A DNA stretch of 64,000 nt from Rhodocytophaga rosea (GTDB lineage Bacteria > Bacteroidota > Bacteroidia > Cytophagales > 172606-1), in contig NZ_CP048222.1 in NCBI RefSeq assembly GCF_010119975.1, forward strand, positions 5,618,501 to 5,682,500, in the 5' to 3' direction. The notes under the pieces are model-generated. The model was given only the letters and a program-made list of their open reading frames with translations. It did no database searches and was not told where the DNA came from. The translations under genes and the position numbers were made by a program. Of this stretch, positions 1 to 55,042 are shown one piece after another. How positions within the stretch are numbered: position 1 is the first letter of the stretch; every line of letters starts with the position of its first letter.

Positions 1-217
1 AGTAAAAGCGCCTTTATCGCAAATAAAACTGGTGCCAACCGGAGGTGTTACAGTCAATAACTTTACTGATTTTTTTAAAGCTGGTGCAGATGGTGTAGGG
101 ATGGGAAGTCAGCTATTTAATAAAACACTGCTTGCCAGCCGTGACTGGGATGGATTACTCACGCATTTTAAATCAGTACATCTGGCTTATGAACAACTTC
201 AAAACAAACAAAGCTGA
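1..217 (+). CDS. eda: 2-dehydro-3-deoxyphosphogluconate aldolase, C-terminal part
   Basis: The reading frame is already open at the window edge (frame beginning at base 2) and stops at 217, so only about 71 C-terminal residues are visible. KDPG/KHG aldolase splits 2-keto-3-deoxy-6-phosphogluconate into pyruvate and glyceraldehyde 3-phosphate. The visible part carries the family signature VPTGGV, then NNFTDFFKAGADGVGMGS, which matches the phosphate-binding end of the TIM barrel. A strong terminator overlaps the stop codon, so this is the last gene of its unit. Family assignment is firm; the upstream partner (often a KDG kinase) cannot be seen. Confidence 0.85.
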   Translation, partial: VKAPLSQIKLVPTGGVTVNNFTDFFKAGADGVGMGSQLFNKTLLASRDWDGLLTHFKSVHLAYEQLQNKQS

Positions 218-242
218 TTCTTGTGAAAATCAGCTTTGTTTT
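207..242 (+). terminator. Rho-independent terminator of the aldolase gene
   Basis: A perfect 13-bp inverted repeat (207-219 with 228-240) around an 8-base loop is followed by a run of T. It begins inside the last codons of the aldolase gene. Confidence 0.85.
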
Positions 243-287
243 ATCAAATATCAAATTATACTTAAAATCAATTCGATTTAGAAGCGG

Positions 288-1748
288 CTATCTTTTATCA
301 GTACGTTTTTCATAAAAGCCTTTGTCGTTAAACGGCTCCTGTTTATAAAAATCTTCCTGGCTGCCAGATCTCAGATTGTATTCTGGTGATAAAGTGGTAA
401 GCAATGTCCGTTCGTAGTCTCTGGTAACGGTTTCGCCGGTGTAAGATGGAAATTTCATTACCATGGCGCTATCTAAATTAGGTACCAGAACATAGTCGCT
501 GTTCTTATCGATAGTGGCTGCTCCTATAGGAATCAGTATGTGGCGGTTAGCTATGTTTTCACTTAGGTTGCCGGTAAATACGTTCACATCCAGATACCTT
601 ACTTTCATAGCCTCTACATCTACAATCAGTTCCTGCACTTTTCCGATTTCTTCACCTTTATTACCAATTACTGGCCAGCCGCGAACGTCCAGGTGTTTAT
701 CAGCCACCTCAAACTCTTTCTCCAATTCTCTCATCCGCTTCAGTGAAGAAATACGGTTACTCTCGCGGTTTCTAGCTATGTTCTCCTCTACCGTTTCCCT
801 CTCCCGAAGTAATTGTTGCTGGGTTTCCGCATGTGTCCGCTCAATCAAAAGTGTATCATCTTTCAGGCGGTTCATGCGCTCCTGGTATAGCTGATCTTGC
901 TGTAATTTTTCCAGTTGAATATTATATAATTCATCCTGGCGCATTTTTTCCTGTTGCACCTGCGTAATTTTATCCTGAATCAATTCCATATGCACTTGTT
1001 TTTCACGCCTGAGGTGCTCAATTTTCTCTTGCAGGCCTGTATCATTGTGCTGAATTTCGGTACGCAGCAGATTTATTTTCTGCTCATATTCCTGGTCGGT
1101 TTCCACTTTGTCTTGCTGTAATTCAGACACACGGCGGTTAAAGGCTTGTTTCGCTTCCTCCCAGTCGCGGATAAATTCCTCCCGGTCTTCCAGAATACGC
1201 TTTTTATAATGCGTTTCTGATTGTACTTCAGCTAATTTTTCCTGACGGAGTTTTTCCAGCCGCAGAATCTCTACATTCAGTTCATCTATTTTCTGCTGAA
1301 TTTCCTCACTGGCTTTACGCATTTTTTCCATGTGTTTTTCATCGGCTTCAACTTCTCGCATACGTATGCGCTCAATTTTTTCCAGATAGTCTTTTTCAGC
1401 AGCGGCTTGTTCCTGGTCTAAGCGGGCTACTTTATCCTGATAGGCATGGTCATGATTTTGCCTTTCTTCATGCAGCCTTGAAATTCTTTCTTCCAGCAGA
1501 TCATCTTTATATTGTTCCTCCTGGCGGAGTTTTACAAGCCTTTCTTCGAACTGTTGGTCATAAGCTGCTTTTTCCTGCGCCAGTTTTTCCATTCTGTCGT
1601 GGAACTGGGTATCAAGCTGCGCTTTTTGCTCCTGTAACCGTTGTAAATCTGCATTTGTCTGCTCACTGCGAACGGAATCTTCTCTGGAATTCGGTCTGTT
1701 TGCTCTGTCTGTCGTCATGGGGTTTGGAATTAATGGCTTATGGAACAC
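288..1748 (-). CDS. 18-residue-repeat coiled-coil protein with C-terminal PRC-barrel
   Basis: The 486-residue product has two parts. Residues about 30-345 are highly charged helix built largely from 18-residue repeats (49-156 as six exact units, 203-274 as four, then a 13-residue unit and one more at 288-305). The unit pattern is aromatic/aliphatic-x-E-K/R-aliphatic-x-K/R-L-x-x-E, with D near position 16. Residues about 353-430 form a PRC-barrel domain (VRGWPVIGNKGEEIGKV), a fold found in ribosome-maturation and photosystem proteins and in stress-related general proteins. There is no signal peptide, so a cytoplasmic location is likely. An internal ATG at 1718 (residue 11, MTTDRANRPN) is an equally good start. 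The small membrane-protein gene upstream may be co-transcribed. Function is unknown; a structural or stress role is inference. Confidence 0.75.
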   Translation of the reverse strand: MFHKPLIPNPMTTDRANRPNSREDSVRSEQTNADLQRLQEQKAQLDTQFHDRMEKLAQEKAAYDQQFEERLVKLRQEEQYKDDLLEERISRLHEERQNHDHAYQDKVARLDQEQAAAEKDYLEKIERIRMREVEADEKHMEKMRKASEEIQQKIDELNVEILRLEKLRQEKLAEVQSETHYKKRILEDREEFIRDWEEAKQAFNRRVSELQQDKVETDQEYEQKINLLRTEIQHNDTGLQEKIEHLRREKQVHMELIQDKITQVQQEKMRQDELYNIQLEKLQQDQLYQERMNRLKDDTLLIERTHAETQQQLLRERETVEENIARNRESNRISSLKRMRELEKEFEVADKHLDVRGWPVIGNKGEEIGKVQELIVDVEAMKVRYLDVNVFTGNLSENIANRHILIPIGAATIDKNSDYVLVPNLDSAMVMKFPSYTGETVTRDYERTLLTTLSPEYNLRSGSQEDFYKQEPFNDKGFYEKRTDKR

Positions 1749-7399: not shown

Positions 7400-7424
7400 G
7401 TATTGTGATTTTACTCCTATATAC

Positions 7425-7458
7425 AAAACGGCGGCTTCACTTTGAAACCGCCGTTTTA
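7425..7458 (+). terminator. Rho-independent terminator after ktrA
   Basis: A GC-rich stem (7425-7437 with 7445-7457, one mismatch, 7-base loop) ends in a T-rich tail. It lies between ktrA and the convergent CPBP-like gene, and may act in both directions because arm 1 begins with A residues. Confidence 0.8.
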
Positions 7459-7497
7459 TTAAGTTCTAAATAATATTCGTTTCGATAATATTTATTA

Positions 7498-8565
7498 CTA
7501 TTCCAGGCTGAACTGAGGAATAGGCTGCTGTTTGTCTAATATCTTTTTCAGCCGCCATATCAGGAATAGTGTCAGCATGAAACTCATTACACCCAGGCTA
7601 TAATACAGCGTATCGTTCCCAACCAGATTTTTCCAGATCAGTAATTGATTGATGTGTTGTGGTTTTGCTAACATAATATGGAGCAATCCTGGCAATTGTG
7701 CGAAAATGACAACCATAATAGAAGGAATCAGTGAATGTGTCCGGTAGAAAAGCCATCCCGAAAACAAACCCATTAAGAATAGAGAAGGCACCCCATAAAG
7801 ATTTAACAAGCTAACCGAGTAAAATATACTGGCGCACATAATAGCTCCGGAAGGCTTATATTTCCTGAGCAAGCCTTTTAGGATAATCCCACGGAATAAA
7901 ATCTCCGATAATATGGGCCAGAGAATTCCAATACATACTATTGCAGGCAGAGGTTTGAAAAAATTCAGGTGATGAAAAATTAAAGCCTGATAACTCTCTG
8001 AAAGAGGTATTAAGGTAAAAACAGCTTCCATCCAGATCAGCCAAAGAAATAGAATACCCAGTATAAGCGGAAAAATAGAAGGCGGAAAAGGCCGTAACGG
8101 AAAGATATCTACTTTTGTAAAATTCTCTTCTTTCAACATTACTCTGGCTATAAGAATGACCAGAAACAAAGCTCCACATACCTGAATGGCCTGAATCAGT
8201 ATGATATGCTCATAAAAGAAATCGGGAGCACCCTTTTGAATAGGGCTAATAATGAAGCCGGAAAAGAATATAAAAAAGATGTAGACAAGCAGCAAGATGA
8301 ACGACTGCAAAATATTTGGATAAAATATTGATTGTCCATTCAGTAAAGTCCGTGTTTTTTTCTCTACCTGTTTGAGTTCTTGTTTTCCGAAGCGGCTCAT
8401 CACCATCTGGTAAGCCAGATTAAAATCTCTGCCTGCTGCCATTTCTGTTTCTACAGCCGTACAAATATGATCTAACAGGTCTTCGCCAAGGTCGGGATGA
8501 GAAATGCCTCGTTGGGCAATTTCATGTTTAATAAGTTCAGTTTGCTGTTGGGTGAGCGTTGTCAT
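7498..8565 (-). CDS. CPBP-like polytopic membrane protein with N-terminal helical prefix
   Basis: The 355-residue protein begins with a soluble helical prefix of about 85 residues, like the permease-prefix domains found beside PadR regulators, followed by about eight membrane helices. Residues about 215-290 resemble the CPBP (Abi, Rce1-like) fold: PILSEILFRGIILKGLLRKY matches the E-E-x-x-x-R motif, and GVPSLFLMGLFSGWLFYRT matches the later helices. The motif has only one Glu (SE for EE), and the FxxxH motif reads FYSVS without His. Protease activity is therefore doubtful. Its start overlaps the padR stop by four bases, so PadR probably controls it. Confidence 0.6.
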   Translation of the reverse strand: MTTLTQQQTELIKHEIAQRGISHPDLGEDLLDHICTAVETEMAAGRDFNLAYQMVMSRFGKQELKQVEKKTRTLLNGQSIFYPNILQSFILLLVYIFFIFFSGFIISPIQKGAPDFFYEHIILIQAIQVCGALFLVILIARVMLKEENFTKVDIFPLRPFPPSIFPLILGILFLWLIWMEAVFTLIPLSESYQALIFHHLNFFKPLPAIVCIGILWPILSEILFRGIILKGLLRKYKPSGAIMCASIFYSVSLLNLYGVPSLFLMGLFSGWLFYRTHSLIPSIMVVIFAQLPGLLHIMLAKPQHINQLLIWKNLVGNDTLYYSLGVMSFMLTLFLIWRLKKILDKQQPIPQFSLE

Positions 8566-8912
8566 AGAGAAGTAAAAGTTTGAAGACCAGGTTTGTTTAT
8601 CAATTCCTGCATGGTTTGCAGATAATCAGTGAGCTGGGTTATTTTTTCCTTGGCTTTGCTGTTGCCTTTCTGGGTAAGAGAGTAATAAATACGCACTCTT
8701 TCGCCAATTTTAACCTTTTCCGTAGTTAGCTCGCCCTCCGCTTTTAGCTTATGCAGAATCGGATAGATAGCCGCCTCTGTAATGGAGATTTTTCCTTCGG
8801 TTTGTTTTTTGATTTCCTGTGTGATCTGGTAGCCATACATTTTCTCCTGCTCCGATAAAAGCTTGAGAATAATGGTTTGCAGGCTGCCTTTGATGAGTTC
8901 TTGTGGATACAT
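8562..8912 (-). CDS. PadR-family transcriptional regulator
   Basis: The 116-residue winged-helix protein matches PadR: YPQELIKGSLQTIILKLL at the start, EKMYGYQITQEI in the recognition region, TEAAIYPILHKLKAEGEL and the wing RVRIYYSLTQKG. A C-terminal helix for dimerisation follows. The frame is open to an ATG at 8948, but I chose the ATG at 8912 because the family begins there and because an inverted repeat that looks like an operator lies at 8922-8942. It overlaps the membrane-protein gene by four bases. Autoregulation is likely by analogy with other PadR operons. Confidence 0.85.
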   Translation of the reverse strand: MYPQELIKGSLQTIILKLLSEQEKMYGYQITQEIKKQTEGKISITEAAIYPILHKLKAEGELTTEKVKIGERVRIYYSLTQKGNSKAKEKITQLTDYLQTMQELINKPGLQTFTSL

Positions 8913-8921
8913 GGCATAAAT

Positions 8922-8957
8922 ATATATAAGAATCTTATATATTGCCAACTTATATAT
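8922..8957 (-). promoter_or_regulatory. probable PadR operator
   Basis: A perfect 10-bp inverted repeat with a one-base centre (8922-8931 and 8933-8942, half-site ATATATAAG) sits 9 bases before the padR start. A third half-site in the CTTATATAT orientation lies at 8949-8957. Position and symmetry fit an autoregulatory operator; no binding data are implied. Confidence 0.5.
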
Positions 8958-9284
8958 TAATTTTTTTGATTCACGTTTAATCTCTGGTTAATATTGAAAT
9001 AACCACTAATAAAATGATCGGTCTTGTTTGCGAATAGTCAATTAAAATAAATCAAATCATCTGAGAAGTTCTCCTAAGTTAATATGCTTTAACAGTTTCT
9101 ATTCATAGAAATTACATTGCATAACGAAGACAAGTTTGCACCCTACACTTAGCCAGGGTATATTATAATAAGTAATTTGTAACTCACCTATAATCACTTG
9201 AATAGAGCTTTTTTCTATACTGATTCAATTGCTTGAAACGATTGAAGATGATATAAATGTCAGATAAATTGTGTTTACTTCTTA
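8958..9284. other. intergenic region without visible gene
   Basis: This AT-rich divergent spacer separates padR from the GAF-PAS gene. No ORF of convincing composition, RNA gene or strong hairpin was seen. It presumably carries the promoters of both genes. Confidence 0.6.
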
Positions 9285-10424
9285 ATGAATTCTACTTCCT
9301 TACATTCTATTGAAAAAGATCGTTTATCAAGTCTTTATCAATATAAGATATTAGATACGCAGCAGGAAGCAAGTTTTAATAATATTTGCAGACTAGCTTC
9401 ACAAGTTTGCCAGACTTCTGCAGCTATGATCACTTTTATTGATCATAGCAGGCAATGGATCAAAGCTAAAACAGGAGTAAATCTTATTGAAACGCCCAGA
9501 AACATCGCTTTCTGTGATTATACGATCCGGCAAAACGAGCTTTTCCAGATTACAGATGCATCCACTGATGAACGGTTTTATCAGAATCCTTTAGTAACTA
9601 ACGAACCATATATCCGGTTTTATGCAGGATTTCCTCTTCTCACCCCATCCGGGCATAGAATAGGTGCTTTGTGTGTAGTAGATATATCGCCAAAACAGTT
9701 AACGCAAGAACAAGAAGTTGCGCTCCGTGGCTTGTCAGAGCAGGTGATGCAATTAATGGAATTTCGTTACCTTATGGCTAAGCTTCATCAGGAGTATTTT
9801 GATAATATTGAACAGCAACAAATATTACTGGAGAACAAGTTAACCTTACGGGCGATTTTAGATAGTACCAATGATGGCCATATTCTAATTGATGCTAATT
9901 TTAAGATTCTCTCTTTTAATAAAGTAACGCAGCAAGCCTTTGAAAGATTTTTTAAACAATCCATCGCTATCGGAGAGGATTTCTGGCAATTGATAGCACA
10001 AATACCCGGCATTGAAGACGAATTTAAAAGTAACTTCAATATAGCGCTGCTTGGTAATAAAGTATCGATAGAAAAAAATATAGAAATCAAACCTGGTTTA
10101 TCCTTATGGTATTCATTTCAATTTTTGCCTGCCTATGATGAGTATGGCAGTATCATTGGAGTAACCTTAAATGCTTCCAATATTAATAAGCAGAAGCGTC
10201 TGCAACTTCGAATCTTGTCTCAAAATCAACGCTTACAGGATATTGCTAATTTCCAGTCCCATAAAATCCGCCGTCCGGTTGCCACTATGTTAGGCTTGAT
10301 CCAGATTTTAGATAAAACTACTCTGACAAAAGAAAACTCAGAATTGATTTCTATGCTTGAAATTACGGCCAGAGAACTGGATGAGGTTATACATCAGATC
10401 GTTCACAAAACGAATATGGCGTAA
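9285..10424 (+). CDS. GAF-PAS-DHp sensor protein lacking a kinase ATPase domain
   Basis: The 379-residue protein has a GAF domain (about residues 20-158; FCDYTIRQNELFQITDAS, YAGFPLL, GALCVVD). A PAS domain follows (about 185-305; LTLRAILDSTNDGHILIDA), then a dimerisation/phosphoacceptor helix with FQSHKIRRPVATMLGL (about 330-345), the H-box form common in Bacteroidota histidine kinases. It stops about 35 residues later, and no N, G1 or G2 ATP-binding boxes follow. It is therefore a truncated kinase, a phosphotransfer partner, or a sensor that works through another kinase. No response regulator is adjacent. Confidence 0.75.
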   Translation: MNSTSLHSIEKDRLSSLYQYKILDTQQEASFNNICRLASQVCQTSAAMITFIDHSRQWIKAKTGVNLIETPRNIAFCDYTIRQNELFQITDASTDERFYQNPLVTNEPYIRFYAGFPLLTPSGHRIGALCVVDISPKQLTQEQEVALRGLSEQVMQLMEFRYLMAKLHQEYFDNIEQQQILLENKLTLRAILDSTNDGHILIDANFKILSFNKVTQQAFERFFKQSIAIGEDFWQLIAQIPGIEDEFKSNFNIALLGNKVSIEKNIEIKPGLSLWYSFQFLPAYDEYGSIIGVTLNASNINKQKRLQLRILSQNQRLQDIANFQSHKIRRPVATMLGLIQILDKTTLTKENSELISMLEITARELDEVIHQIVHKTNMA

Positions 10425-10470
10425 ATATAGCTACCTTAGCTTTACTTGTTAGGAGCAAGCAGAATGGAAA

Positions 10471-10872
10471 ATGAAAACTTGCAAACTAAATTCGCTTATA
10501 ATTGCCTGGATATTCTGTATAGGACAGAGTTTTGGGGAGGCATTTCTAGGATTTATATTCACCAATGTTAGAATGGCAAGTGATGTAAATAATGAAGGTG
10601 CTATATTTTTTGCAGTCATAAGAATTTGCCTTACGCTGATTCCTTATTTGCTTGTGTTTCTGATTGCAAACATTATTTCACCAAGAATAAAACCATCTGT
10701 AATATCTTTTGTAATTAATTTACCAATTCTAATTTACTTTTACTCATCAGGAATGATTCAAAAAGACCCTGTTTCCTTTGTAGCAGGTTCCTTACTGATA
10801 AGCCTGATATTGCTTGCCATTGATAACAAAAGAAGAATAAAAAGATATTTGATAAATAGAGAAATAGATTGA
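10471..10872 (+). CDS. small four-helix membrane protein, likely a cassette gene
   Basis: The 133-residue product has four predicted membrane helices (about residues 8-32, 47-70, 76-94, 100-118) and a basic tail (NKRRIKRYL). I do not recognise a family. The gene sits between GTTAGGA at 10448-10454 and an attC-like hairpin whose first box starts 8 bases after the stop codon. That tight, promoterless arrangement is typical of integron cassettes. The cassette idea is inference from the flanking sites; the ORF itself has plausible composition. Confidence 0.6.
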   Translation: MKTCKLNSLIIAWIFCIGQSFGEAFLGFIFTNVRMASDVNNEGAIFFAVIRICLTLIPYLLVFLIANIISPRIKPSVISFVINLPILIYFYSSGMIQKDPVSFVAGSLLISLILLAIDNKRRIKRYLINREID

Positions 10873-10880
10873 GGCTATGT

Positions 10881-10940
10881 GCCCAACACCGTGCAGTCCA
10901 CCACCGGTCCAAGGTGGCGGCGGCACTTAATGCGTTAACT
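10881..10940 (+). other. integron attC-like recombination site
   Basis: The 60-base element begins with GCCCAAC (fits RYYYAAC) and ends with GTTAACT (near GTTRRRY). It has inner complementary blocks GTGC 10891-10894 with GCAC 10923-10926, and CCACC 10898-10902 with GGTGG 10913-10917. The right end, CACTTAATGC before GTT, resembles the right end of known attC sites. It is strikingly more GC-rich than its surroundings. The upstream GTTAGGA at 10448 pairs better with GCCCAAC than the downstream flank does, as expected for an inserted cassette. Confidence 0.5.
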
Positions 10941-10985
10941 CATTTTATTCACCAAGCTTATTTACAGAGCTTTTTTCCTGTTTCT

Positions 10986-11025
10986 CAAAAAGAAGGCAAT
11001 CATAACAATGATTGCCTTCTTTTTG
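10986..11025. terminator. strong bidirectional terminator
   Basis: A perfect 18-bp stem (10986-11003 with 11008-11025) with loop AACA has A-rich and T-rich flanks on both sides. It separates the small membrane-protein gene from the end of the NRPS operon and can serve both. Confidence 0.9.
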
Positions 11026-11059
11026 ACTAATACATTAAAGCTTTTGAAACTATTTAACC

Positions 11060-14000
11060 TTACCAGAATCTTTTCTCTTTTCCGAAATCAACCATCATGC
11101 TTGCCAGTTGCCCATTGAGTTCCTGCCAGTGAATATGAAGCTTATCCATAATACCTTTGGACCGATCTGATACCAGCATTACATTGCTCTCATTGATTTC
11201 CATAATCCGTACGTTTACGATAATGTGTTCGATAAATTCTTTCATGGCCGGATCTTCATATTTCTGAAGAATCAAATCCGGAAATTCATCCAATGACACT
11301 AATTGTACGTGTGGAAAATTTGGCTTAATTACCATTTGATACAGATTATTCAAGCTATACGTATGCGAATTGTATACATGAAATACATCATTCACCAGGC
11401 ATTTTTGCTTGGCAAATTTTACAATAGATTCTGCTGTAGTGTTGATGAACGAAAAATCATAAAACTGATGGTGCATGTCTGGCATGATGCCCAGGTTGAT
11501 GAATGAACGCAGCAACATATAGAAAGCATTGTTCTCCGTATTTTCCTGGAATTTACCCGTACTGTTATTGAATACCAGATTACCCACCCGGTAAACATTT
11601 GCCTCAACGCCTTCCTCCATAGCTTTGAATATGATGTTCTCGGCATCCAGTTTCGATTGCAAATAAATGGTATTATTTATATCCGGAATTTTCTGTACCC
11701 GGTCATATTCGCTGAATACATAATCTTGTCCGAAAGAAACGCCTGCTGTAGATACATGGTGTATCCGCTTGGGACGACCAGTTTTTGCCAGGTTCACCAG
11801 TTCCTGTACACCAATGGTGTTGCCTCTGTAATCAGCTTCCAGGCCATAGTGTTTTACATTCGCCGCCGGGTTAAAAATTGTATCAATCTTATTTGTAAGT
11901 GCTTGATAATTACCTTCTTCAATACCTAAAGAAGGCTTCTCCATTTCTCCGGCAACAATCTGTATTCTGTTGGCATATTGCGCATGAAACTCAGGCCCAA
12001 AAAAGAAGGAAATTTTCTTTAGTAACCGGTCTTTGGCGGCTGCCTCATTTTCTGCCCGTATCAATGTGTATATAATAGCAGAAGTCTGGGTCAATAATTC
12101 ATAGAGGAGATGAATACCCAGGTATCCGGTACTTCCGGTGAGTAAAACTTCTTTGAACTCTTGCTGTTCGCCGGGAATCTGGAAGGTATCTTGTTTGATG
12201 CGATCTCTGTACCAAACTTTTCTTTCTTCAGACTTCTGAATATCGGCTTTGCTCAACGGTTCTTTTTTCAGGCGCTTTAAAGTTTCCAGCAGATTACCTT
12301 TTTTATACACCAGGTTTTGGGATAACCCTCTGATGGTTGGATATTTAAAGAGGGTCGTGAGTTTAATCTGGTAATCTTTTGATAATTTATGCAGTACTTT
12401 CATAGCCTTCAGCGAATGGCCGCCCAGTTCGAAAAAGTTATCATGCACACTGATCATGGAAATACCTAATACCTCCTTCCATATTTCCACCAGTTGCTCC
12501 TCGATTTCATTTGCCGGTGCTTCATAGGTACTTTTACTCAATAATACCGGATCTGGTAGTTTTGCTATATCGAGTTTTCCATTGGCATTCAGCGGTAACA
12601 TATCTAATTGCATAATAGCAGAGGGTACCATGTAGTCAGGCAATTTGCCGGCTAAGATGGAAGCAATTTCCTCTGGGTTCATTTGGGAAGAAGCTGTAAA
12701 ATAGCCAGCCAGCGATCTGTCATCATTCTGGTCTTTTCTCACAACCACTCTTGCTTCCCGGATTCCACTGATATTCAGCAATTCGTTTTCTATTTCAGAT
12801 AATTCAATTCTGAACCCACGGATTTTCACCTGCGTATCGATTCTACCCAGAAACTCCAGTTCACCGTTTTCATTCCACCGAACCAGGTCACCAGTATTAT
12901 ACAACATTTCACCTGTTTTGAAAGGACTTGGAATAAAGCGCTGCTGGGTAAGTTTAGGACTATTTAAATAGCCTTTGGTCACACCATCGCCGCCCACATA
13001 CAAAATGCCTTCTGCACCCGGAATAACCAGCCTGTTTTTTTTGTCCAGCACATAGCAGGTTGAGTTGCTTAAAGGCTTTCCAATCGGTACTGGCCCTGCA
13101 TAGTACCTTTGTATGGTATGTGTGGTAGAAAAGAAGGTGTTTTCTGTCGGACCGTATCCATTTACTACTTTTGTAAGGGTATTATACTGATAAAACTTAT
13201 TGGCATGCCTGGTAGACAGAGCCTCACCGCCAATCAATACATAGGTAAGCTTATCAAATACCGTTACATCCTGTTCAATCAGTGCATGAAAGGCAGCCGT
13301 GGCCACAAAAGAAATGGTAATGTGATGTTGGTCAATATACCCCTTCAGTCTTTCAGCATTGAGTAAAAGATCTGTACTGATAATGTGCATCGGTAAGCCC
13401 ATGATAAGTGGAGCCCAGATTTCAAAGGTAGAAGCATCAAACTCCATTGGTCCGGTCTGAAGAATCTGGTCACTGGCAGCAAACTTTACATAATTGGTAT
13501 TGATAATAGTCCGCAACACGTTTTTGTGGGTGGCTATTACACCTTTGGGTTTTCCTGTAGATCCGGATGTATAGATGACGTAAGCCGCATCCTCAGGCTG
13601 GATATTTACACCTGGGAAAGTAGTATTGGCATGTGCATCGAGTTCTTTCATAGAATGCTGGTGCTTATGCCGTATATCGGTGCTGGTCGCTGCTGTTTTG
13701 TCTACATACAGCATCGCATCATAGCGGTACTTGGTAAGTTCATTCTCAATAGTATGAATTTTACCCGAAAAACGCACTTTATGAATTCCTAGAATATCAA
13801 ACCTGAGGTCTTCCAGGAAACTTCTGGAGTAAAAAATTTCATTGCTGAAATCTGTTTTTACCTTGTAACCTTTACCTATAGTATTCTTTTTGAAAGTATT
13901 TAAAGACTCAATGAACATTTCCCTGCTATCTTCATCCATAATGTCGCCCAGAAAGATAATGCCATTGTCTTTCATCAGGTGAACCACCTTGCTGAGTACA

Positions 14001-15628
14001 TCTCTCAGGTAATTATGCCCTTCAAAACACTGGATCACACTATTAATAATTACCAGGTCAAACTCTTTTTCTTCAACCTGATCTATTTCGTGCCCTGCCA
14101 GACTTTTTAGTTTGATATTGGTAATGCCTCTCTCCGCAATTAGCTTCTGGTTCTTTTCAATAATAACCCTTGAAAAGTCTGTTCCATAGTACAAAGCTGT
14201 ATGTGGCGCCAGTTCAAACATACTTATTCCGGAGGCGCAACCTATTTCTAATACACGGGTGTTTTTATTGAGCAGCGGCTTTAATTTTTTGACAATATTA
14301 TCCCGGTACTCATTCATTTCTGCCCTCGAAATGTTTTCTCCGGTATAACTGTTCTGCCAGCCACCACCTTCTATATCATCGGTAGCCGTTTCGCCTACAT
14401 GTTCCCAAAGCTTCTGGTTATTGAGCTCATTCTTTAAAGAGCTTTCTTCTTTTTCAGTATGAACATCCAGACTATCTATACAAAGAAATGTTTCAAAATG
14501 CGGACATTCCCATTGAAGTTTATTGAGCAGTTTGATATGGGACTTGGAAGAAAGAATTGTTTTTAACCGGGCATCGTTCAGGATCATTCTGATTCTTTCT
14601 GCCGGATATCTGGGCGAAATGGGCAGATACGAACCTCCGGCCTTGAGTATTCCCATCATACAAGCAATAGTATGATGCGACTTTTGTAAAAGTATTCCAA
14701 CTGGTTCTTCTCTGTTGATCTTTACTGTATTTTTCAAATACGCAGCAATCCTGTCAGAATACAAATCCAGCTCTTTAAAAGTTAAGGAACCATTCTCTGA
14801 CACTACCGATACCGCATCAGGAGTTTTACTCGTCCATTGTTTAAAAACCTGTACCAGGTTTGATCCGGATGGATAAGGAGCACTTGTATTGTTAAGCAGG
14901 TGCAGAAGCATATGCTCTTCTTCGGCCTCCATAATAGAAACTTCATCTACAGGCAGATCGGCCTTAGCCAGCAGGCAACTGATCGTATGCAGGTATTTTT
15001 TAGTAAAGTTTTTGACAAATTCTGCTGAAAATAGTTTTCCGTTGTATATACACTGTACTTCTAAGGCTGCTTCTGTTTTATGAAAAACAAAATCAAGCTC
15101 TGTTGCTTTATAGAAAAAGTGAATATTTTTTAGGAAAATACCTGTTTTGGGGATTTTATATGTATCAATTACATGAAGTGGATAGTGTTGCTGTTGATAG
15201 ACTGCTGCTATGGTCTCTTTTTCTGCTTTTAATACTTCCTTAAATGTGCTCTCAGGATTTAATGTAGCATAAATTGGTAACAGCTGCGCGCTAAAAAAAT
15301 CATGCACCTGCGTATTAGGTACCATCGTAGGAATACCCAGTTCCAACCCCAGCTGGCCTAAATACTTGTATAATAAAATTCTGTATGAGGCAACCAGAAT
15401 AATGAACATAGCCTCTGGATTTCCTTTGGAAGCTTTTTCTAATTGCGCCAGTAAGGCAGGATTAATCTGCAGGCTATACTTCTGTTCCTCATACTCAAGG
15501 GTCTGAAAGAAACTGTAAGGAAGTCTGGTTTCTTCCGTTTTTTTACCTAGTTCTTCCAGCCAGTATTTTTTGGCTCTGACAAATTCCGGTAAAGACAATA
15601 ACTGGGTCTTTTCAATAACATTTTCCAT
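11060..15628 (-). CDS. NRPS: C-lobe fragment, A interrupted by methyltransferase, PCP, terminal reductase
   Basis: The 1522-residue enzyme is the second and terminating module. Residues 1-245 match only the C-terminal lobe of a condensation domain, with no HHxxxDG. The A domain starts near 256, with core A2 at KAGGSYLPISP (329-339). A SAM methyltransferase is inserted at about 401-645 (VLEIGCASG, 459-467). Core A3, YVIYTSGSTGKPKG, resumes at 683. The specificity residues I align read DAFFLGGFFK, closest to Val/Ile-type codes. The PCP has GGHSLK with Ser1072. Residues about 1155-1522 form a thioester reductase: TGSTGYLG at 1164-1171, HVSTAG near 1291, and Tyr1322/Lys1326. There is no thioesterase, so release should be NAD(P)H-dependent, giving an aldehyde or alcohol. 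It lies 101 bases downstream of the first NRPS gene. Confidence 0.9.
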   Translation of the reverse strand: MENVIEKTQLLSLPEFVRAKKYWLEELGKKTEETRLPYSFFQTLEYEEQKYSLQINPALLAQLEKASKGNPEAMFIILVASYRILLYKYLGQLGLELGIPTMVPNTQVHDFFSAQLLPIYATLNPESTFKEVLKAEKETIAAVYQQQHYPLHVIDTYKIPKTGIFLKNIHFFYKATELDFVFHKTEAALEVQCIYNGKLFSAEFVKNFTKKYLHTISCLLAKADLPVDEVSIMEAEEEHMLLHLLNNTSAPYPSGSNLVQVFKQWTSKTPDAVSVVSENGSLTFKELDLYSDRIAAYLKNTVKINREEPVGILLQKSHHTIACMMGILKAGGSYLPISPRYPAERIRMILNDARLKTILSSKSHIKLLNKLQWECPHFETFLCIDSLDVHTEKEESSLKNELNNQKLWEHVGETATDDIEGGGWQNSYTGENISRAEMNEYRDNIVKKLKPLLNKNTRVLEIGCASGISMFELAPHTALYYGTDFSRVIIEKNQKLIAERGITNIKLKSLAGHEIDQVEEKEFDLVIINSVIQCFEGHNYLRDVLSKVVHLMKDNGIIFLGDIMDEDSREMFIESLNTFKKNTIGKGYKVKTDFSNEIFYSRSFLEDLRFDILGIHKVRFSGKIHTIENELTKYRYDAMLYVDKTAATSTDIRHKHQHSMKELDAHANTTFPGVNIQPEDAAYVIYTSGSTGKPKGVIATHKNVLRTIINTNYVKFAASDQILQTGPMEFDASTFEIWAPLIMGLPMHIISTDLLLNAERLKGYIDQHHITISFVATAAFHALIEQDVTVFDKLTYVLIGGEALSTRHANKFYQYNTLTKVVNGYGPTENTFFSTTHTIQRYYAGPVPIGKPLSNSTCYVLDKKNRLVIPGAEGILYVGGDGVTKGYLNSPKLTQQRFIPSPFKTGEMLYNTGDLVRWNENGELEFLGRIDTQVKIRGFRIELSEIENELLNISGIREARVVVRKDQNDDRSLAGYFTASSQMNPEEIASILAGKLPDYMVPSAIMQLDMLPLNANGKLDIAKLPDPVLLSKSTYEAPANEIEEQLVEIWKEVLGISMISVHDNFFELGGHSLKAMKVLHKLSKDYQIKLTTLFKYPTIRGLSQNLVYKKGNLLETLKRLKKEPLSKADIQKSEERKVWYRDRIKQDTFQIPGEQQEFKEVLLTGSTGYLGIHLLYELLTQTSAIIYTLIRAENEAAAKDRLLKKISFFFGPEFHAQYANRIQIVAGEMEKPSLGIEEGNYQALTNKIDTIFNPAANVKHYGLEADYRGNTIGVQELVNLAKTGRPKRIHHVSTAGVSFGQDYVFSEYDRVQKIPDINNTIYLQSKLDAENIIFKAMEEGVEANVYRVGNLVFNNSTGKFQENTENNAFYMLLRSFINLGIMPDMHHQFYDFSFINTTAESIVKFAKQKCLVNDVFHVYNSHTYSLNNLYQMVIKPNFPHVQLVSLDEFPDLILQKYEDPAMKEFIEHIIVNVRIMEINESNVMLVSDRSKGIMDKLHIHWQELNGQLASMMVDFGKEKRFW

Positions 15629-15729
15629 AAAACAGGTTGATTGATAATGTAATGACTGTATAAAGCTGGATTGATTTACATGAGTTATCCCTACCCGAAA
15701 GAGTATAGATAAAGCTAATTAATTACGCA

Positions 15730-18700
15730 TCAGATGTCGAATTCTACATCGGTTATGGTATTTTCAGTGAAGAGTTGAGCCCTCAATTCAGACAATTTGC
15801 TGTTGTCGATAAAGGTAATCTCTTCGAGAAGAGTAGATGGGGATGAAACTGCCTTGCCGGCTAGTTTAATAAAATTTTCGGCAAGCTTACACATGTATTC
15901 TTTGCTGAACATGCCGGTATTATACTCTACATCAATAGTAAATGAATCTTGTTGCTCTACAATAAAAAATGAAAAGTCAAACTTAGAAGTAGCTGTCGCA
16001 TTCTCATATTTTAATGTTAAACCTGGAATTGCCTGCTCGCTGAAAAAGTCAATATTCTGAACAATAAATAAGGTATCAATCAGCGGTACTTTTTTGTCAT
16101 TTCCGCTTAATCCTAGTTTGGAAACCAATAGTTCAAAGGGGTACTCCTGGAATTCAAAAGCTTCCAGAACCTGGTTTTTTATATTTATTACAAAATCACT
16201 GAAGGTTGTTTCTGTAGGAATAGTAGCTCTTAAGGCAAGCGTATTTACAAACATTCCCATCATTTGCTGCAATTCTTCCTTTCTTCTATTGGCAACAGCG
16301 GTTCCTACCACAATATCTTGCTGCTGGGTATATTTGGAGAGTAGCAGATAATATACGGAAAGCAAAAGCTGATAGAGAGATACATCTTCACTGAGCGCAT
16401 ATTCCTTTAGTTTCCATGTAAGCTCTTTATCAATGGTAAAAGATAATCTTTCCCCGGCAAAATTTTGTATATCAGCCGTACGGTCTGTTGGCATGGTAAG
16501 CCTGGGAATATTCCTGTAGGTATTCAGCCAATATTGTTCGTGTGCCTTAAAATAATCACTATTGGCATATTGAATAGTTTCCCATTCTGCATAATCTTTA
16601 TATTGAAGCGGCAGACTGGGCAAGGGTTCCTGGTTCAGCAAGCGTATAAATTCGTTAACCAATATACCCATGGATGTACCATCTGCAATAATGTGGTGCG
16701 TATTGAAAATAATGGCTATGCCTCCCTGAACTATCTCATAATATCCCACATGCAAAATAGGCGCTTTGCTCAAATCAAATGGGCGGACGAATTGTTTTGC
16801 TGCCCGGGTTAATTCACTGGCTTTTACTCTGCCACCTTCCAACAAATTAACCTCTATTTGAGTAAGTACTTCTTGTACTATTTCGTCAGATTGAATATCG
16901 AATCTCGTGCGCAATACTTCTTGCCTGGCATATAAAATTTGAAGCGCCAGCTGAATAGCTTCTTTTATGATCCGCTTTTCGAATTGCAGTACAATGGACA
17001 CATTATAGCTTACGTCCACTTTGTCTGTGCTATTCATCACAAACATCCTTTTTTGGGCAGCAGAAGTTGTATAATACTTTTTTACAGGTGCCGGAAGGAT
17101 AGGCTCATAGTAAGATTTCCGGCTTGTTTTTATCAGATCATGAATCTGGGTAATATGGGGCTTTTTATAGATATCCGACACAGATAAATCCACATTGAAC
17201 TCTTTGCTGATTTTAGCAGAAAGTTTAGCTGCTTTCAGAGAGTGGCCTCCCATGAGAAAGAAATTATCGGATAAATCCAGGTGCTGGATACCTAACATTT
17301 CTTTACAGATATCCAGTACCCTTTCCAAAGTTCCTTCCAGTGGTTGAGCTGCATTTACTGGAACAGGCTGATTTATAGCAAAAGGAGAAGGCAATGCTTT
17401 TTTATCAATTTTGCCATTATTCGTCATTTTGAATTCAGGCAGCCGCATAAACCAGTGGGGCACCATAAAGGCAGGGAGTTCCCCCAGTAATTTTTCACGG
17501 ATCAGCTCTGTTAAAATATCTTGTTCAGCCGTAAAATAGGCGCACAAATATTTTTCACCTTCATGCTCAAGAGCACAAACGAAGGCATTGGTAACAGGAT
17601 GTATCTGTAACAGCGCATGTTCGATAGCTCCAAGTTCTATCCGGTGCCCTAATATTTTTACCTGGTCATCTTTTCTCCCCAGGATAATCAGAGTTCCGTC
17701 ATCCAGCTTTTTCACAATGTCTCCTGCACGGTATATACGTTCCCCAAGTTTATTGGGTAGATCAAGAAATGCTTTTTGGGTAAGTTCAGGCTTGTTGATA
17801 TATCCTTTTGCCAGTCCTATTCCGCTTATGTAAAGTTCTCCAGTTTCGCCATCCGCTACGGGATTTAGTTCTTCATCAAGTATATAAAATCTGATATTTG
17901 GAATCGCTTTTCCAATAGGTATGTAGTTTTCGTACACATGCTCAGGCATTACCTGATAGACAGAAACACATACCGAAGCCTCTGTAGGACCATAAGCATT
18001 AAAATATCTCTTTGTCTGGCTGTAGTAAAGTGCATCTGATATATTACAGGCTTCACCGGCAGTCACTATAGTTTTAACAGTTTCAAACTCTGGGCGATTT
18101 AAGCTATTCAGGAAAACCGGAGGGAGTAAAATAAATGTAAGCCTTTTCTTATCGAGATAGCCTAAAAATAGATTTTTATCAAGAATGATATCCTTATCTA
18201 CAATTACCAGAGTTGAGCCTGATAATAAAGCAATAAAAATTTCATAAACAGAAGCATCAAAAGAAATAGAAGCAAACTGCAGTACTCTTTCCGATGGGCC
18301 AAGCTGGTACACAAAAATCTGATACAAGCACATGTTTATAAATCCTGCATGTGCTACCATTACACCTTTTGGGTTGCCAGTAGTACCGGAAGTATAAATA
18401 AGATAAGCTAAGCTTTGGGGATCTGAATATACCTGAAGGGTATGTTCTAAGTGTCCTTGTAATTGCGCTACATCAACTTCTTCGACCTGTGGATGATCGC
18501 CTATGTATGGAGAAGAAGTAACAATAAACCGGATACGGCTGTCTTCCAGCATGTAATTAATCCGAGCCGCAGGATAAGTAGGATCAATTGGTGCATACGC
18601 TGCCCCGGCCTTCATAACGGCCAGAATAGAAATGATCAAGTCAATGCCTTTATCTAGCTTTACACCCACTATGTCACCTTTTTGTATGCCTTTATTGGTA

Positions 18701-18897
18701 AGGTACCGGGCAACATAATTGGCTTTTTCATCTAAAGCCTGATAGGATATGGATTGTTCGTTATGAACTACTGCTTCCACATCCGGAAATTTCAGCGCAA
18801 TGGACTCAAAAATAATATGGATACTCTCATTCTTTGCACTAGTCAATAGCTGATTGCCTGTCACCTGGTTGAGTGACATATTGTTTTTACTGTTCAC
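15730..18897 (-). CDS. NRPS loading module: A-PCP-C
   Basis: The 1055-residue enzyme starts directly with an adenylation domain (about 25-505), so it is the loading module. Core motifs are LAYLIYTSGTTGNPKG (163-178), FDASVYE (213-219), NAYGPTE (300-306), and the A10 lysine in NNGKID (Lys496). The specificity residues I align read DAYLVAAVCK. The VAAVCK end is shared with many Phe/Tyr codes, so an aromatic residue is my guess. The PCP (about 520-590) has GGHSLK with Ser553. A complete condensation domain follows (about 605-1055) with HHIIADG at 734-740. Its acceptor should be the aminoacyl-PCP of the downstream protein. It is the first NRPS gene in the minus-strand pair. Confidence 0.92.
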   Translation of the reverse strand: MNSKNNMSLNQVTGNQLLTSAKNESIHIIFESIALKFPDVEAVVHNEQSISYQALDEKANYVARYLTNKGIQKGDIVGVKLDKGIDLIISILAVMKAGAAYAPIDPTYPAARINYMLEDSRIRFIVTSSPYIGDHPQVEEVDVAQLQGHLEHTLQVYSDPQSLAYLIYTSGTTGNPKGVMVAHAGFINMCLYQIFVYQLGPSERVLQFASISFDASVYEIFIALLSGSTLVIVDKDIILDKNLFLGYLDKKRLTFILLPPVFLNSLNRPEFETVKTIVTAGEACNISDALYYSQTKRYFNAYGPTEASVCVSVYQVMPEHVYENYIPIGKAIPNIRFYILDEELNPVADGETGELYISGIGLAKGYINKPELTQKAFLDLPNKLGERIYRAGDIVKKLDDGTLIILGRKDDQVKILGHRIELGAIEHALLQIHPVTNAFVCALEHEGEKYLCAYFTAEQDILTELIREKLLGELPAFMVPHWFMRLPEFKMTNNGKIDKKALPSPFAINQPVPVNAAQPLEGTLERVLDICKEMLGIQHLDLSDNFFLMGGHSLKAAKLSAKISKEFNVDLSVSDIYKKPHITQIHDLIKTSRKSYYEPILPAPVKKYYTTSAAQKRMFVMNSTDKVDVSYNVSIVLQFEKRIIKEAIQLALQILYARQEVLRTRFDIQSDEIVQEVLTQIEVNLLEGGRVKASELTRAAKQFVRPFDLSKAPILHVGYYEIVQGGIAIIFNTHHIIADGTSMGILVNEFIRLLNQEPLPSLPLQYKDYAEWETIQYANSDYFKAHEQYWLNTYRNIPRLTMPTDRTADIQNFAGERLSFTIDKELTWKLKEYALSEDVSLYQLLLSVYYLLLSKYTQQQDIVVGTAVANRRKEELQQMMGMFVNTLALRATIPTETTFSDFVINIKNQVLEAFEFQEYPFELLVSKLGLSGNDKKVPLIDTLFIVQNIDFFSEQAIPGLTLKYENATATSKFDFSFFIVEQQDSFTIDVEYNTGMFSKEYMCKLAENFIKLAGKAVSSPSTLLEEITFIDNSKLSELRAQLFTENTITDVEFDI

Positions 18898-18929
18898 TTC
18901 TACTAATTAAATAAATCAATTAAGGCTTA

Positions 18930-18952
18930 GTGCTGAGATCAATTCTCAGCAC
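18930..18952. promoter_or_regulatory. perfect hairpin between the STAS-like gene and the NRPS pair
   Basis: A 9-bp perfect stem (18930-18938 with 18944-18952) closes a five-base loop, 33 bases before the NRPS start. There is no T tract directly after it on the minus strand. It could be an operator, a leader hairpin or a weak attenuator. Confidence 0.4.
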
Positions 18953-18999
18953 ATAATAAATAAGCATTGGAAGAGTACAAGTAGGGGAGGTATTTTATG

Positions 19000-19389
19000 T
19001 TAGGACAACCACTTCTTTGCCTCTTCGAGTTTGGTAAAATTCTGTATTTCAATCTGCTGGTTCTGAACTGAAATAAGAATGTTTTTTGCGGAAGCCTGCC
19101 CGAACACATCTTCTGACATGATCACTCCTTGTTTTCTATAACAACCGGAGGAAACAGCTTTGGTAACCCATTCTGTACCTGCCCATTCCTGGTCTTTTAT
19201 ACCTAATACTTTCATCAACCGGATATCCGATACCCAATTTTTGATTTTATGTTTTTTAGCTATCTCTAAAGACTTATCTAAAGCATCTCTATAGCTGGCA
19301 CTAGGTATAAAACCCTTCCAGGTTAATAAAATAGCTGTAGAATCATTGGTTAATTCTGCTGTTACGAATTCATTCTGAAACTGGATCAT
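19000..19389 (-). CDS. STAS/SpoIIAA-like small protein
   Basis: The 129-residue cytoplasmic protein has alternating strands and helices like the STAS-like (SpoIIAA-type) proteins common in Bacteroidota: LTWKGFIPSASYRDALDKSL, then NWVSDIRLM, and a C-terminal FTKLEEAKKWLS. No catalytic residues are evident. It lies upstream of the NRPS pair on the same strand (102-base gap with a hairpin), so co-transcription is possible but unproven. Its role in the peptide pathway, if any, is unknown. Confidence 0.55.
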   Translation of the reverse strand: MIQFQNEFVTAELTNDSTAILLTWKGFIPSASYRDALDKSLEIAKKHKIKNWVSDIRLMKVLGIKDQEWAGTEWVTKAVSSGCYRKQGVIMSEDVFGQASAKNILISVQNQQIEIQNFTKLEEAKKWLS

Positions 19390-19858
19390 AAAACAAGATA
19401 TTTATAATATTAATATTTAAGTTTCCTTATAAAAGAGTCTGATCAAACCATCAGAAGTAATAAGCTTATTCCTGAACAGAAACTGAGATTGCAGCCCCTT
19501 TCTATCAGTTGTTTGATTTGATGTGCTTAAAATAAGTGAGTATCTCCTAAAGTAACAATTCGAATCCTTGCAAAATCGCCTGCTGTTCAATTAGGAAATG
19601 TAATTTTTTTAATATAAATAAATAAAAATACCTTGAAATCCCCTTTTTTGAATATAAAGTATTGTGTATTAAGGTAATTATGATGTGTTTAAATAGCTGA
19701 TAGTCAGCATACAATAACCTTATTTTTTGTCTTTGCCTATTTTCATTTAAATCCTCTCTTAAGTAGTATATTTTTTAATTATATATGGCCCTGACTTATA
19801 CCATGAATTGTAACTTGCAACGCTTTAATGTGAGTCTGCTATCCTATCTTATTACTAC
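19390..19858. other. divergent intergenic region, STAS-like gene / PPTase
   Basis: The 469 AT-rich bases hold no credible ORF. They must carry the promoters for the two divergent sides of the NRPS locus. TAACTTGC at 19809-19816, about 43 bases before the PPTase start, is a near match to the Bacteroidota -7 box. Confidence 0.5.
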
Positions 19859-20536
19859 ATGGCTGCTGTAATATTATATACCGATTATACCTATTGCATA
19901 TATGAAAGTCTGCTGGAAACCTATACAGACATTTTGCCACTGCCTGTACTAAAAAAAGCTGCTACATTCAGAAATTGGCAGGATAAGCAGGCTTTCATAT
20001 TAGGTAGGTTACTGGTGTGGAAAGGGCTCAAGTCCTTTCAGTATGAGGATAATTGTTTAAATCAACTTCAGATAAGCAGTTACGGAAAGCCGTATATAGA
20101 TCATCAGGTATTTTTTAATATTTCTCATGCAGGCAGGTATGTAATATGTGCGCTTAATAGCGAAGAAACCGGTATTGATATTGAAGAGATCCAACCTATC
20201 GAGTTAAATGATTTTAATGCCATTTTCTGTGCAGAGGAAAAATTCCAGTTGAGTAAAGCCAGTAATCCCTTACAGCAATTTTTTAAATTCTGGACAATTA
20301 AAGAAAGCGTGATCAAAGCAGAAGGGAAAGGATTATCCATACCTATGGATCAGGTTACTATATCACCTGAAGGCGCTGTATCCTATAAAGAAAAAACCTG
20401 GTATGTGAAAGAAATTGATGCTTTTCAGGATTATTGTTGTGTAATCGCTACTGCCACTCAACTCACATCTCTGATTGTAAAAAAAGTAAATTTCGATGTT
20501 GCCCAATCAACTGAAACTATAGTATCTTTAGTATAA
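19859..20536 (+). CDS. 4'-phosphopantetheinyl transferase, Sfp type
   Basis: The 225-residue enzyme moves phosphopantetheine from coenzyme A to the conserved Ser of carrier proteins, converting them to the holo form. All Sfp-type motifs are present: YGKPYI (GKP 76-78), FNISHAG (86-92), GIDIE with metal ligands Asp107 and Glu109, and FWTIKESVIKAEGKGL with Glu149 and Lys153. It is divergent from the NRPS pair and within 1 kb of it, so its likely substrates are Ser553 and Ser1072 of those proteins. It could also serve other carrier proteins in the cell. Confidence 0.92.
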   Translation: MAAVILYTDYTYCIYESLLETYTDILPLPVLKKAATFRNWQDKQAFILGRLLVWKGLKSFQYEDNCLNQLQISSYGKPYIDHQVFFNISHAGRYVICALNSEETGIDIEEIQPIELNDFNAIFCAEEKFQLSKASNPLQQFFKFWTIKESVIKAEGKGLSIPMDQVTISPEGAVSYKEKTWYVKEIDAFQDYCCVIATATQLTSLIVKKVNFDVAQSTETIVSLV

Positions 20537-20640
20537 TTTTATAATCAATTCTGCGCTGACCAGATGTACAGAAAACACCCAAACTTAATTAAATATTCCT
20601 TTTAAGATTTCCTGCAAAATACTTACTTTTGCAATCCTTT

Positions 20641-54014: not shown

Positions 54015-54029
54015 AGGATAATTTCTTTC

Positions 54030-54977: not shown

Positions 54978-55042
54978 TGAAATAAATAATAGTTGATAAA
55001 GTGGATTGGTATATTCGCTTGTTGAAAAATATTCAACAAAAA

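Follow-up and report, generated by a model that had tools for sequence, protein, structure and literature searches.

A split nonribosomal peptide synthetase with a methyltransferase-interrupted adenylation domain and a terminal reductase in Rhodocytophaga rosea, a candidate route to N-methylated dipeptide aldehydes and pyrazinones

Introduction

The AusA/AusB system of Staphylococcus aureus combines an adenylation–thiolation–condensation–adenylation–thiolation–reductase (A-T-C-A-T-R) logic with a phosphopantetheinyl transferase (PPTase) and reductive release, and is the only nonribosomal peptide synthetase (NRPS) cluster of its genome (PMC12153313; here and below, papers are cited from excerpts in the open-licence PubMed Central (PMC) literature). 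AusA takes Val first and Tyr second; aldehydes of the Val-Tyr type close to imines, which oxidise to pyrazinones, likely spontaneously (PMC12153313). Here, we describe an AusA-like gene block of Rhodocytophaga rosea in a 64,000-nucleotide stretch, referred to as the window (assembly GCF_010119975.1, contig NZ_CP048222.1, positions 5,618,501 to 5,682,500 of the forward strand). The block encodes two synthetase proteins, NRPS1 and NRPS2, for which we propose, from sequence comparison and with moderate confidence, the synthesis of an aromatic-(N-methyl-aliphatic) dipeptide aldehyde that would cyclise to a 1-methyl-dihydropyrazinone or pyrazinone.

AusA is the best curated model for both NRPS1 and NRPS2, and an AusB-type model is the best for the PPTase of the block. 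Unlike AusA, the line is divided between two proteins, carries an extra half condensation (C) domain and a second adenylation (A) domain interrupted by a methyltransferase (MT), and has the reverse predicted residue order. Membership of the AusA family itself (NF047350, cut-off 2500 bits) was rejected with scores of 708.6 for NRPS1 and 653.1 for NRPS2, the splitting lowering the score of each part; the PPTase reaches 82.9 bits against a cut-off of 225 for AusB (NF047349).

Other described systems share single elements with this line. A protein of Nostoc sp. NIES-3756 (WP_067776562.1, 2486 residues) has the arrangement A-PCP-C-A(MT)-PCP-R (PCP, peptidyl carrier protein; R, reductase) with an MT of family PF08242, but the MT lies after motif A8 (A8 at 1474, MT motif at 1606), and the single protein has no half-C domain. 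Identity is about 31-39% by domain, and no PPTase or SpoIIAA-like gene is annotated in the 27.6 kb read around it. The gene lies on plasmid pNOS3756_1 (L072, 8395-15855, plus strand) and is annotated only as NRPS. In TioS and TtcC, an MT is likewise nested in an A domain, in TtcC from thalassospiramide synthesis between motifs A2 and A3 and with N-methylation (PMC11355689, Table 2), but both are parts of the thiocoraline and thalassospiramide lines, and the excerpts mention no reductase directly behind the module. MarQ, from the maremycin pathway, also has an A2/A3-interrupted A domain, but one that methylates a side-chain sulphur (PMC11355689); maremycins E and F are counted among the microbial pyrazinones, with substituents at C5 and C6 (PMC4210894). 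Finally, the coralinone synthetase CorA of Corallococcus makes a methylated pyrazinone with one NRPS-based enzyme, but the methyl group at C5 is installed by a polyketide synthase (PKS) part and not by an MT within an A domain (PMC10979478).

Results

Organisation of the gene block

The features of the block, with the evidence for each where it is specific, are the following.

15730..18897, minus strand: NRPS1, A-PCP-C, 1055 residues, GTG start; initiation module and sole complete C domain (open reading frame (ORF) and Pfam)
17410..18807, minus strand: NRPS1 A domain, code DAYLVAAVCK, final K assumed (Pfam and alignment)
17143..17325, minus strand: NRPS1 PCP, GGHSL (Pfam and motif)
15799..17079, minus strand: NRPS1 complete C domain, HHIIADG at residue 734 (Pfam and motif)
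15733..15771, minus strand: NRPS1 C-terminal tail, ending D-V/I-E-F-D-I/L, a possible docking motif (orthologue alignment)
11060..15628, minus strand: NRPS2, halfC-A(MT)-PCP-R, 1522 residues (ORF and Pfam)
14903..15607, minus strand: NRPS2 half-C domain, C-terminal lobe only, without HHxxxDG; possible docking or C-A platform
14432..14893, minus strand: NRPS2 A domain, N-terminal part through and beyond motif A2 (motif and orthologue alignment)
13694..14431, minus strand: NRPS2 MT insert between A2 and A3; LEIGC at residue 460, NSVIQ at 529-533
12575..13660, minus strand: NRPS2 A domain core, A3-A10, code DAFFLGGFFK, final K assumed
12317..12499, minus strand: NRPS2 PCP, GGHSL (Pfam and motif)
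11063..12142, minus strand: NRPS2 terminal thioester reductase; GSTGYLG (1165), S1293-T1294, Y1322, K1326
19000..19389, minus strand: 129-residue protein, weakly SpoIIAA/STAS-like, heading the gene row; possibly regulatory
19390..19858, no strand: intergenic region common to the divergent PPTase and the 129-residue gene
19859..20536, plus strand: Sfp-type 4'-phosphopantetheinyl transferase, divergent

In NRPS1, Pfam places AMP-binding at residues 31-366, PP-binding at 525-585 and a full Condensation domain at 607-1033 (profile positions 3-450 of 456, E = 8.7e-98). The AMP-binding match of NRPS2 falls into two stretches (E = 8e-78) and is accompanied by the PF08242 methyltransferase (460-558), PP-binding (1044-1104) and the thioester reductase NAD_binding_4 (1163-1388, E = 8.8e-43). 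With two A-PCP units, one complete C domain between them and a terminal R domain, the line is a dimodular NRPS with reductase. An initial annotation had described NRPS1 as A-PCP-C and NRPS2 as A(MT)-PCP-reductase with a divergent Sfp-type PPTase nearby; ORFs and Pfam domains agree with this, including PF01648 (E = 4.6e-16) in the PPTase, 469 bp from the 129-residue gene. New relative to that annotation are the half-C domain, the A2/A3 position of the MT, the 129-residue gene, and the orthologues in two other species, one of which has an empty site at this place. NRPS1 and NRPS2 are separated by 101 bp, and the genome holds one further PPTase match.

ORF list and Pfam reveal neither a thioesterase nor a transporter nor any additional module in the block, in agreement with that annotation, and Pfam finds no PKS domain in it. 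The genome is a single contig of 8,983,451 bases, whose three Condensation matches all lie within NRPS1 and NRPS2. The same holds for the draft assemblies of two genomes with orthologous lines, the congener G040 and G051 from another family, in which matches are confined to the complete C domain in NRPS1 and the half-C domain in NRPS2. These searches bear on the alternative that NRPS1 and NRPS2 act iteratively, with which the sequence is compatible, or with partners encoded elsewhere, giving a product of more than two residues. A longer assembly line is unlikely after the genome-wide searches, and we consider the alternative as a whole very improbable.

Between NRPS2 and its orthologue in G040, the proportions of synonymous (pS) and nonsynonymous (pN) differences are 0.73 and 0.14; those of NRPS1 fall in the same range (0.71-0.73 and 0.14-0.15), with synonymous sites nearly saturated in both, and the PPTase is looser (0.68 and 0.26). 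The block is real, conserved and under purifying selection, with its domain order and core motifs intact, and the small E-values together with this selection make it more than a product of chance. Two simple promoter patterns of the TTTG/TAnnTTTG type, with a consensus taken from general knowledge, have zero matches in the intergenic region between the PPTase and the 129-residue gene. A separate scan of genome contigs returned a single poor match only.

Specificity codes of the adenylation domains

Alignment reproduced both specificity codes, with nine positions read and the final K assumed. The NRPS1 code, DAYLVAAVCK, is identical in all three orthologues and resembles Phe codes of the GrsA type, pointing to an aromatic-like first residue. 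The NRPS2 code reads DAFFLGGFFK in the window, DAFFLGLVVK in G040 and DAFFLGIVFK in G051, a hydrophobic pocket with three variable positions that is presumably close to Leu, Ile and Val codes and aliphatic-like. Since no two of the three orthologues share this second pocket, the 'Val/Ile-like' assignment of the initial annotation is reduced here to 'aliphatic', while its aromatic-like reading of the first code stands. Also retained, as a prediction from the codes, is a residue order that is the reverse of the Val-Tyr order of AusA in aureusimine synthesis.

The difference between the two pockets is accompanied by different degrees of conservation. Identity to G040 and G051 over A3-A5 is 84% and 75% in NRPS1 but only 69% and 66% in NRPS2; the MT domain of NRPS2 is 85% and 77% identical. 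Our hypothesis from these three sequences is that the first residue, the methylation and the release would be fixed, and that the second residue would vary between species. Four fragments of the codes are absent from the main text of the code survey PMC12283262.

Methyltransferase inserted in NRPS2

The MT is inserted within the A domain of NRPS2, between motifs A2 (residue 329) and A3 (residue 686), and its S-adenosylmethionine (SAM) motif is intact (LEIGC, residue 460). The usual insertion site of MTs in A domains is A8/A9 (PMC11355689). The best Pfam family is PF08242 (53.5 bits), which is the family listed for NRPS N-methyltransferases in a table of PMC2613160, and among solved structures the MT is by far closest to 5wmm, from the interrupted A domain of TioS (1.1e-21; the next at 1.1e-7), which methylates backbone amines (PMC8949500). 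A motif (N/H)SV-x-Q is common to the NRPS2 MT, TioS and A8-type relatives.

A2/A3 insertions include both S- and N-methylating enzymes, and the target can therefore not be read from the position of the insert. The same MT lineage (56% identical) is found in genome G011 inside an A domain with the code DFWNIGMVHK, which we take to be a Thr code. Its presence beside both Thr-type and aliphatic codes suits a target common to all residues; in addition, the predicted aliphatic side chain, lacking a heteroatom, has no site for O- or S-methylation. A tree of 18 MT domains was built, in which side-chain MTs are not represented, so that it cannot settle the methylation target. The proximity to TioS suggests that the MT probably acts as a backbone N-methyltransferase and that the product is probably N-methylated. 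What had been annotated as 'possibly methylated' is thereby sharpened, on the evidence of 5wmm and PF08242, to probable backbone N-methylation and hence a probable N1-methyl product.

Alternatively, the MT may be inactive or act elsewhere, by side-chain or C-methylation, in which case the product would be an unmethylated reversed phevalin-type or a side-chain-methylated pyrazinone. The precedent for this is provided by TioN and MarQ, likewise A2/A3-interrupted, which methylate sulphur in side chains (PMC11355689). Set against it are the intact SAM motif, the backbone activity of the nearest solved relative, the predicted absence of O or S from the side chain, and the conservation of the MT, which is the highest of all NRPS2 domains (174 of 246 residues invariant in the three orthologues, compared with 239 of 360 in the reductase and 104 of 245 in the half-C domain). 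We regard this alternative as unlikely. A 5-methylation of the coralinone type was rejected, since that methyl comes from the PKS part and the block has no PKS domain.

Reductive release and proposed product

The glycines of GSTGYLG, S1293-T1294, Y1322 and K1326 (YLQSK) of the reductase are invariant in the three orthologues. The domain is related to solved terminal reductases, with 6vtj as the nearest (4.2e-29) and the R domain of AusA (4f6c) at 3.8e-25. The intact motifs and the AusA models bear out the initial view of a two-module, reductively releasing line, and the conversion of an aldehyde to a pyrazinone is kept from it as the likeliest chemistry by likeness to AusA.

In the proposed route, the PPTase would arm both carrier domains, the residue loaded by NRPS1 would be aromatic, probably Phe, Tyr or Trp, and would keep its amine free, and NRPS2 would load an aliphatic residue of the Val, Leu or Ile class. 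The inserted MT would methylate the backbone nitrogen of the residue on the NRPS2 carrier, and the C-terminal C domain of NRPS1 would couple the two residues across the protein boundary, probably aided by docking through the tail of NRPS1 and the half-C of NRPS2, which lacks the catalytic motif. The reductase would then release an aromatic-(N-Me)aliphatic aldehyde using NAD(P)H, and the free amine would close on the aldehyde to give an N1-methyl-dihydropyrazinone, with a possible oxidation to a 1-methyl-3-arylmethyl-6-alkyl-pyrazin-2(1H)-one. For Phe/Val, the computed [M+H]+ values are 263.1754 for the aldehyde, 245.1648 for the imine and 243.1492 for the pyrazinone, the last being isobaric with the unmethylated Phe/Leu pyrazinone.

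Several points weigh against this assignment. The codes were read by motif and alignment, and those searched matched no paper in the open-licence PMC literature. TioN and MarQ, as noted above, methylate sulphur, and membership of an MT family does not prove activity. A structure model of NRPS2 residues 1-660 has a mean pLDDT (predicted local distance difference test) of 43 and is useless for a three-dimensional check of the half-C domain and the insertion. Furthermore, R domains can also yield alcohols.

The last point leads to a second alternative, in which the product of the same line would stay linear, as an N-methyl dipeptide aldehyde or as the alcohol given by a second reduction, acting for example as a protease inhibitor. 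Release by R domains may be a two- or a four-electron reduction. On the other hand, the free amine is well placed for closure of a six-membered ring, and an N-methyl amide eases the turn. NRPS1, moreover, begins directly with its A domain, and no starter C domain is present to acylate the amine. An inhibitory role would be in line with non-oxidised phevalin, which has been credited with protease inhibition (PMC12153313). We see the linear product as a minor possibility beside the cyclised N1-methyl product.

Half condensation domain and the 129-residue protein

Residues 8-242 of NRPS2 match only positions 183-456 of the 456 in the Condensation profile, and Pfam and motif search agree that HHxxxDG is absent. 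Among solved structures it comes closest to 2jgp (E = 1.2e-6), a C domain of a tyrocidine synthetase, of which it matches the C-terminal lobe. Without the lobe that carries HHxxxDG, this half-C domain should not catalyse by itself. It is present in all three NRPS2 orthologues, in which it is the least conserved domain, with a 35-residue linker lower still, and the C-terminal tail of NRPS1 ends in D-V/I-E-F-D-I/L in all three. Together, the half-C and the tail may serve for docking or as a C-A platform.

Two other origins of the half-C domain were considered. A frameshifted, full second C domain was rejected, given the gap of only 101 bp and an NRPS2 reading frame (1552 codons stop to stop) that leaves 30 codons before the start. 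A duplication of the NRPS1 C domain is unsupported, with 18.6% identity over 145 residues and E = 7.6e-4.

The 129-residue gene sits 102 bp ahead of NRPS1. It recurs beside both orthologous lines (78% and 69% identical) and is assigned to the block. The protein scores 13.9 bits (E = 0.089) against the SpoIIAA-like family PF11964, below the cut-off of 25 bits; the best E-value among the three orthologues is 0.00026, and a structure model (mean pLDDT 64) gives weak fold matches to SpoIIAA-like structures, the best at E = 1.3e-3. The genome contains eight matches to the profile of the protein, itself included, so the family is not special to NRPSs. A regulatory role is possible.

Orthologues and distribution

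A whole-length search with NRPS2 among 390 genomes of the order gave some match in 101 at 1e-30. Among the matches listed, three of the 390 genomes cover NRPS2 1-1522: its own, G040 and G051. Identities to G040 and G051 are 75% and 67% for NRPS2 and 73% and 57% for NRPS1, and both genomes show the same row of 129-residue gene, NRPS1 and NRPS2 with the PPTase divergent. In G051, a thioesterase-like gene of type II size lies beside the PPTase (PF00975, E = 2.8e-37; L037, 18255-18950, plus strand), with none in the block of the window.

The MT is found in two of eight genomes of its own family and one of ten of the family of G051. A search with the MT domain, counting its own genome, retrieved 15 of 395 genomes of the phylum at 1e-8 and 4 of 395 of the class at 1e-20; these samples overlap, and G040 and G051 are not among their matches. 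By motif, the MT lies between A2 and A3 in eight of the 12 closer MT relatives; two have A3 after it with A2 unmatched by the pattern, one is an A2-only fragment, and G867 is ambiguous. In the four more distant relatives (27-29% identical), the MT follows A8 in every case. The motif survey left out two short MT matches, G743 and G526.

The A2/A3-type modules elsewhere in the phylum (G011, G355, G625 and the genus g179; MTs 35-56% identical) resemble that of NRPS2 but are parts of longer lines: A(MT)-PCP is followed by another module in G011, G355 and G625, and by a thioesterase in two g179 genomes scanned. No second A(MT)-PCP-R was seen in the phylum, where the lines were read in part. At least two other NRPS2 matches extend through the reductase, G011 674-1509, which lies on a different contig from the A(MT) of G011, and G180 666-1431. 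Reductases do occur near such A(MT) lines, which speaks against a sharp border.

The g179 genomes are small (2.2-3.3 Mb) and belong to another class; their lines are multimodular, with an MT inserted between A2 and A3 and the code DGHDIGAVxK (L057, L058, L061, L062). The thioesterase ends are in L057 and L058, and in L062, the sole genome so scanned, the line is followed by a PPTase gene. In this L062 region, from the g179 genome G697, the A(MT) line is preceded by a reductase-domain ORF (2-1276, plus strand; PF07993, E = 4.3e-43) that borders the end of the sequence read.

A comparison of the flanks indicates how the block may have moved.

7400..20617, no strand: segment missing in the congener G040 between trkA and a 123-residue ORF; right border approximate

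In G040, trkA and the 123-residue ORF are 103 bp apart with nothing between them, and SecDF, ScpA and Dxs follow in the same order. The alignment to G040 covers the window trkA up to and including the stop codon (7399) and picks up again on the right side near 20618, leaving about 13.2 kb extra in the window. The G040 block is on another contig with other neighbours. Transposase ORFs (PF13751, PF05598) are seen just beyond it (L035, 18264-19809, minus strand). The segment missing from the G040 site also contains a PadR-type regulator and an Rce1-like membrane protease (7498-8948, minus strand). A kinase-like gene (9285-10424) and a 133-residue ORF (10471-10872) were not found in the stretches around the G040 and G051 blocks and are not counted in the block.

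The empty site and the patchy distribution suggest horizontal transfer. Dxs is 89% identical to G040 and 73% to G051, with lower NRPS identities in both genomes, but this comparison is no proof of transfer, and the GC (guanine and cytosine) content of the block (38.6%) differs little from that outside the island (39.9%). With two genomes, an insertion here is indistinguishable from a loss in G040.

Other genes in the window

A GH3-family gene appears to be split into two ORFs in different frames on the plus strand, 36831-37319 with the N-terminal domain (3-111 of 304) and 37373-38395 with the end of that domain and the middle and C-terminal domains. At 53142-56614 (minus strand), Transglutaminase-like, Alpha-E and circularly permuted ATP-grasp genes stand in a row, presumably a widespread, poorly understood gene set.

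Discussion

The existence of a Nostoc protein with the same domain logic means that the overall logic is not unique. This kind of machine is known; the novelty lies in an MT inserted at A2/A3, in the division into two proteins with a half-C domain and in a second pocket that varies. NRPS2 has matches in 1334 plasmid records, none of which covers 80% of it in one place. We found no N-methylated pyrazinone assigned to an NRPS, nor such a product from the Cytophagales, in the excerpts of the open-licence PMC literature, and the excerpts of the Bacteroidetes cluster survey PMC9248904 describe no dimodular reductase line.

If the proposed product is correct, two proteins of together 2577 residues and one PPTase would constitute a very small encoded route to N-methylated dipeptide aldehydes or N-methylpyrazinones. 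Whether an A2/A3 MT acts on an aliphatic residue at its backbone could be tested cleanly with this line, as could the purpose of a half-C domain that is kept although catalytically empty. The three orthologues, with different second pockets beside a constant MT and reductase, are a natural experiment on A-domain specificity. As the line is the only condensation locus in each of the three genomes, other NRPSs would not mask the phenotype of its deletion.

More speculatively, and with rather low confidence, the block may be a transferable cassette for signalling or inhibition, in which N1-methylated (dihydro)pyrazinones would combine a fixed aromatic with a species-specific aliphatic side chain, the second pocket diversifying under constant methylation and reductive release, and the half-C serving as a docking platform between the two proteins. 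If so, the chemical dialect would differ from one species to the next.

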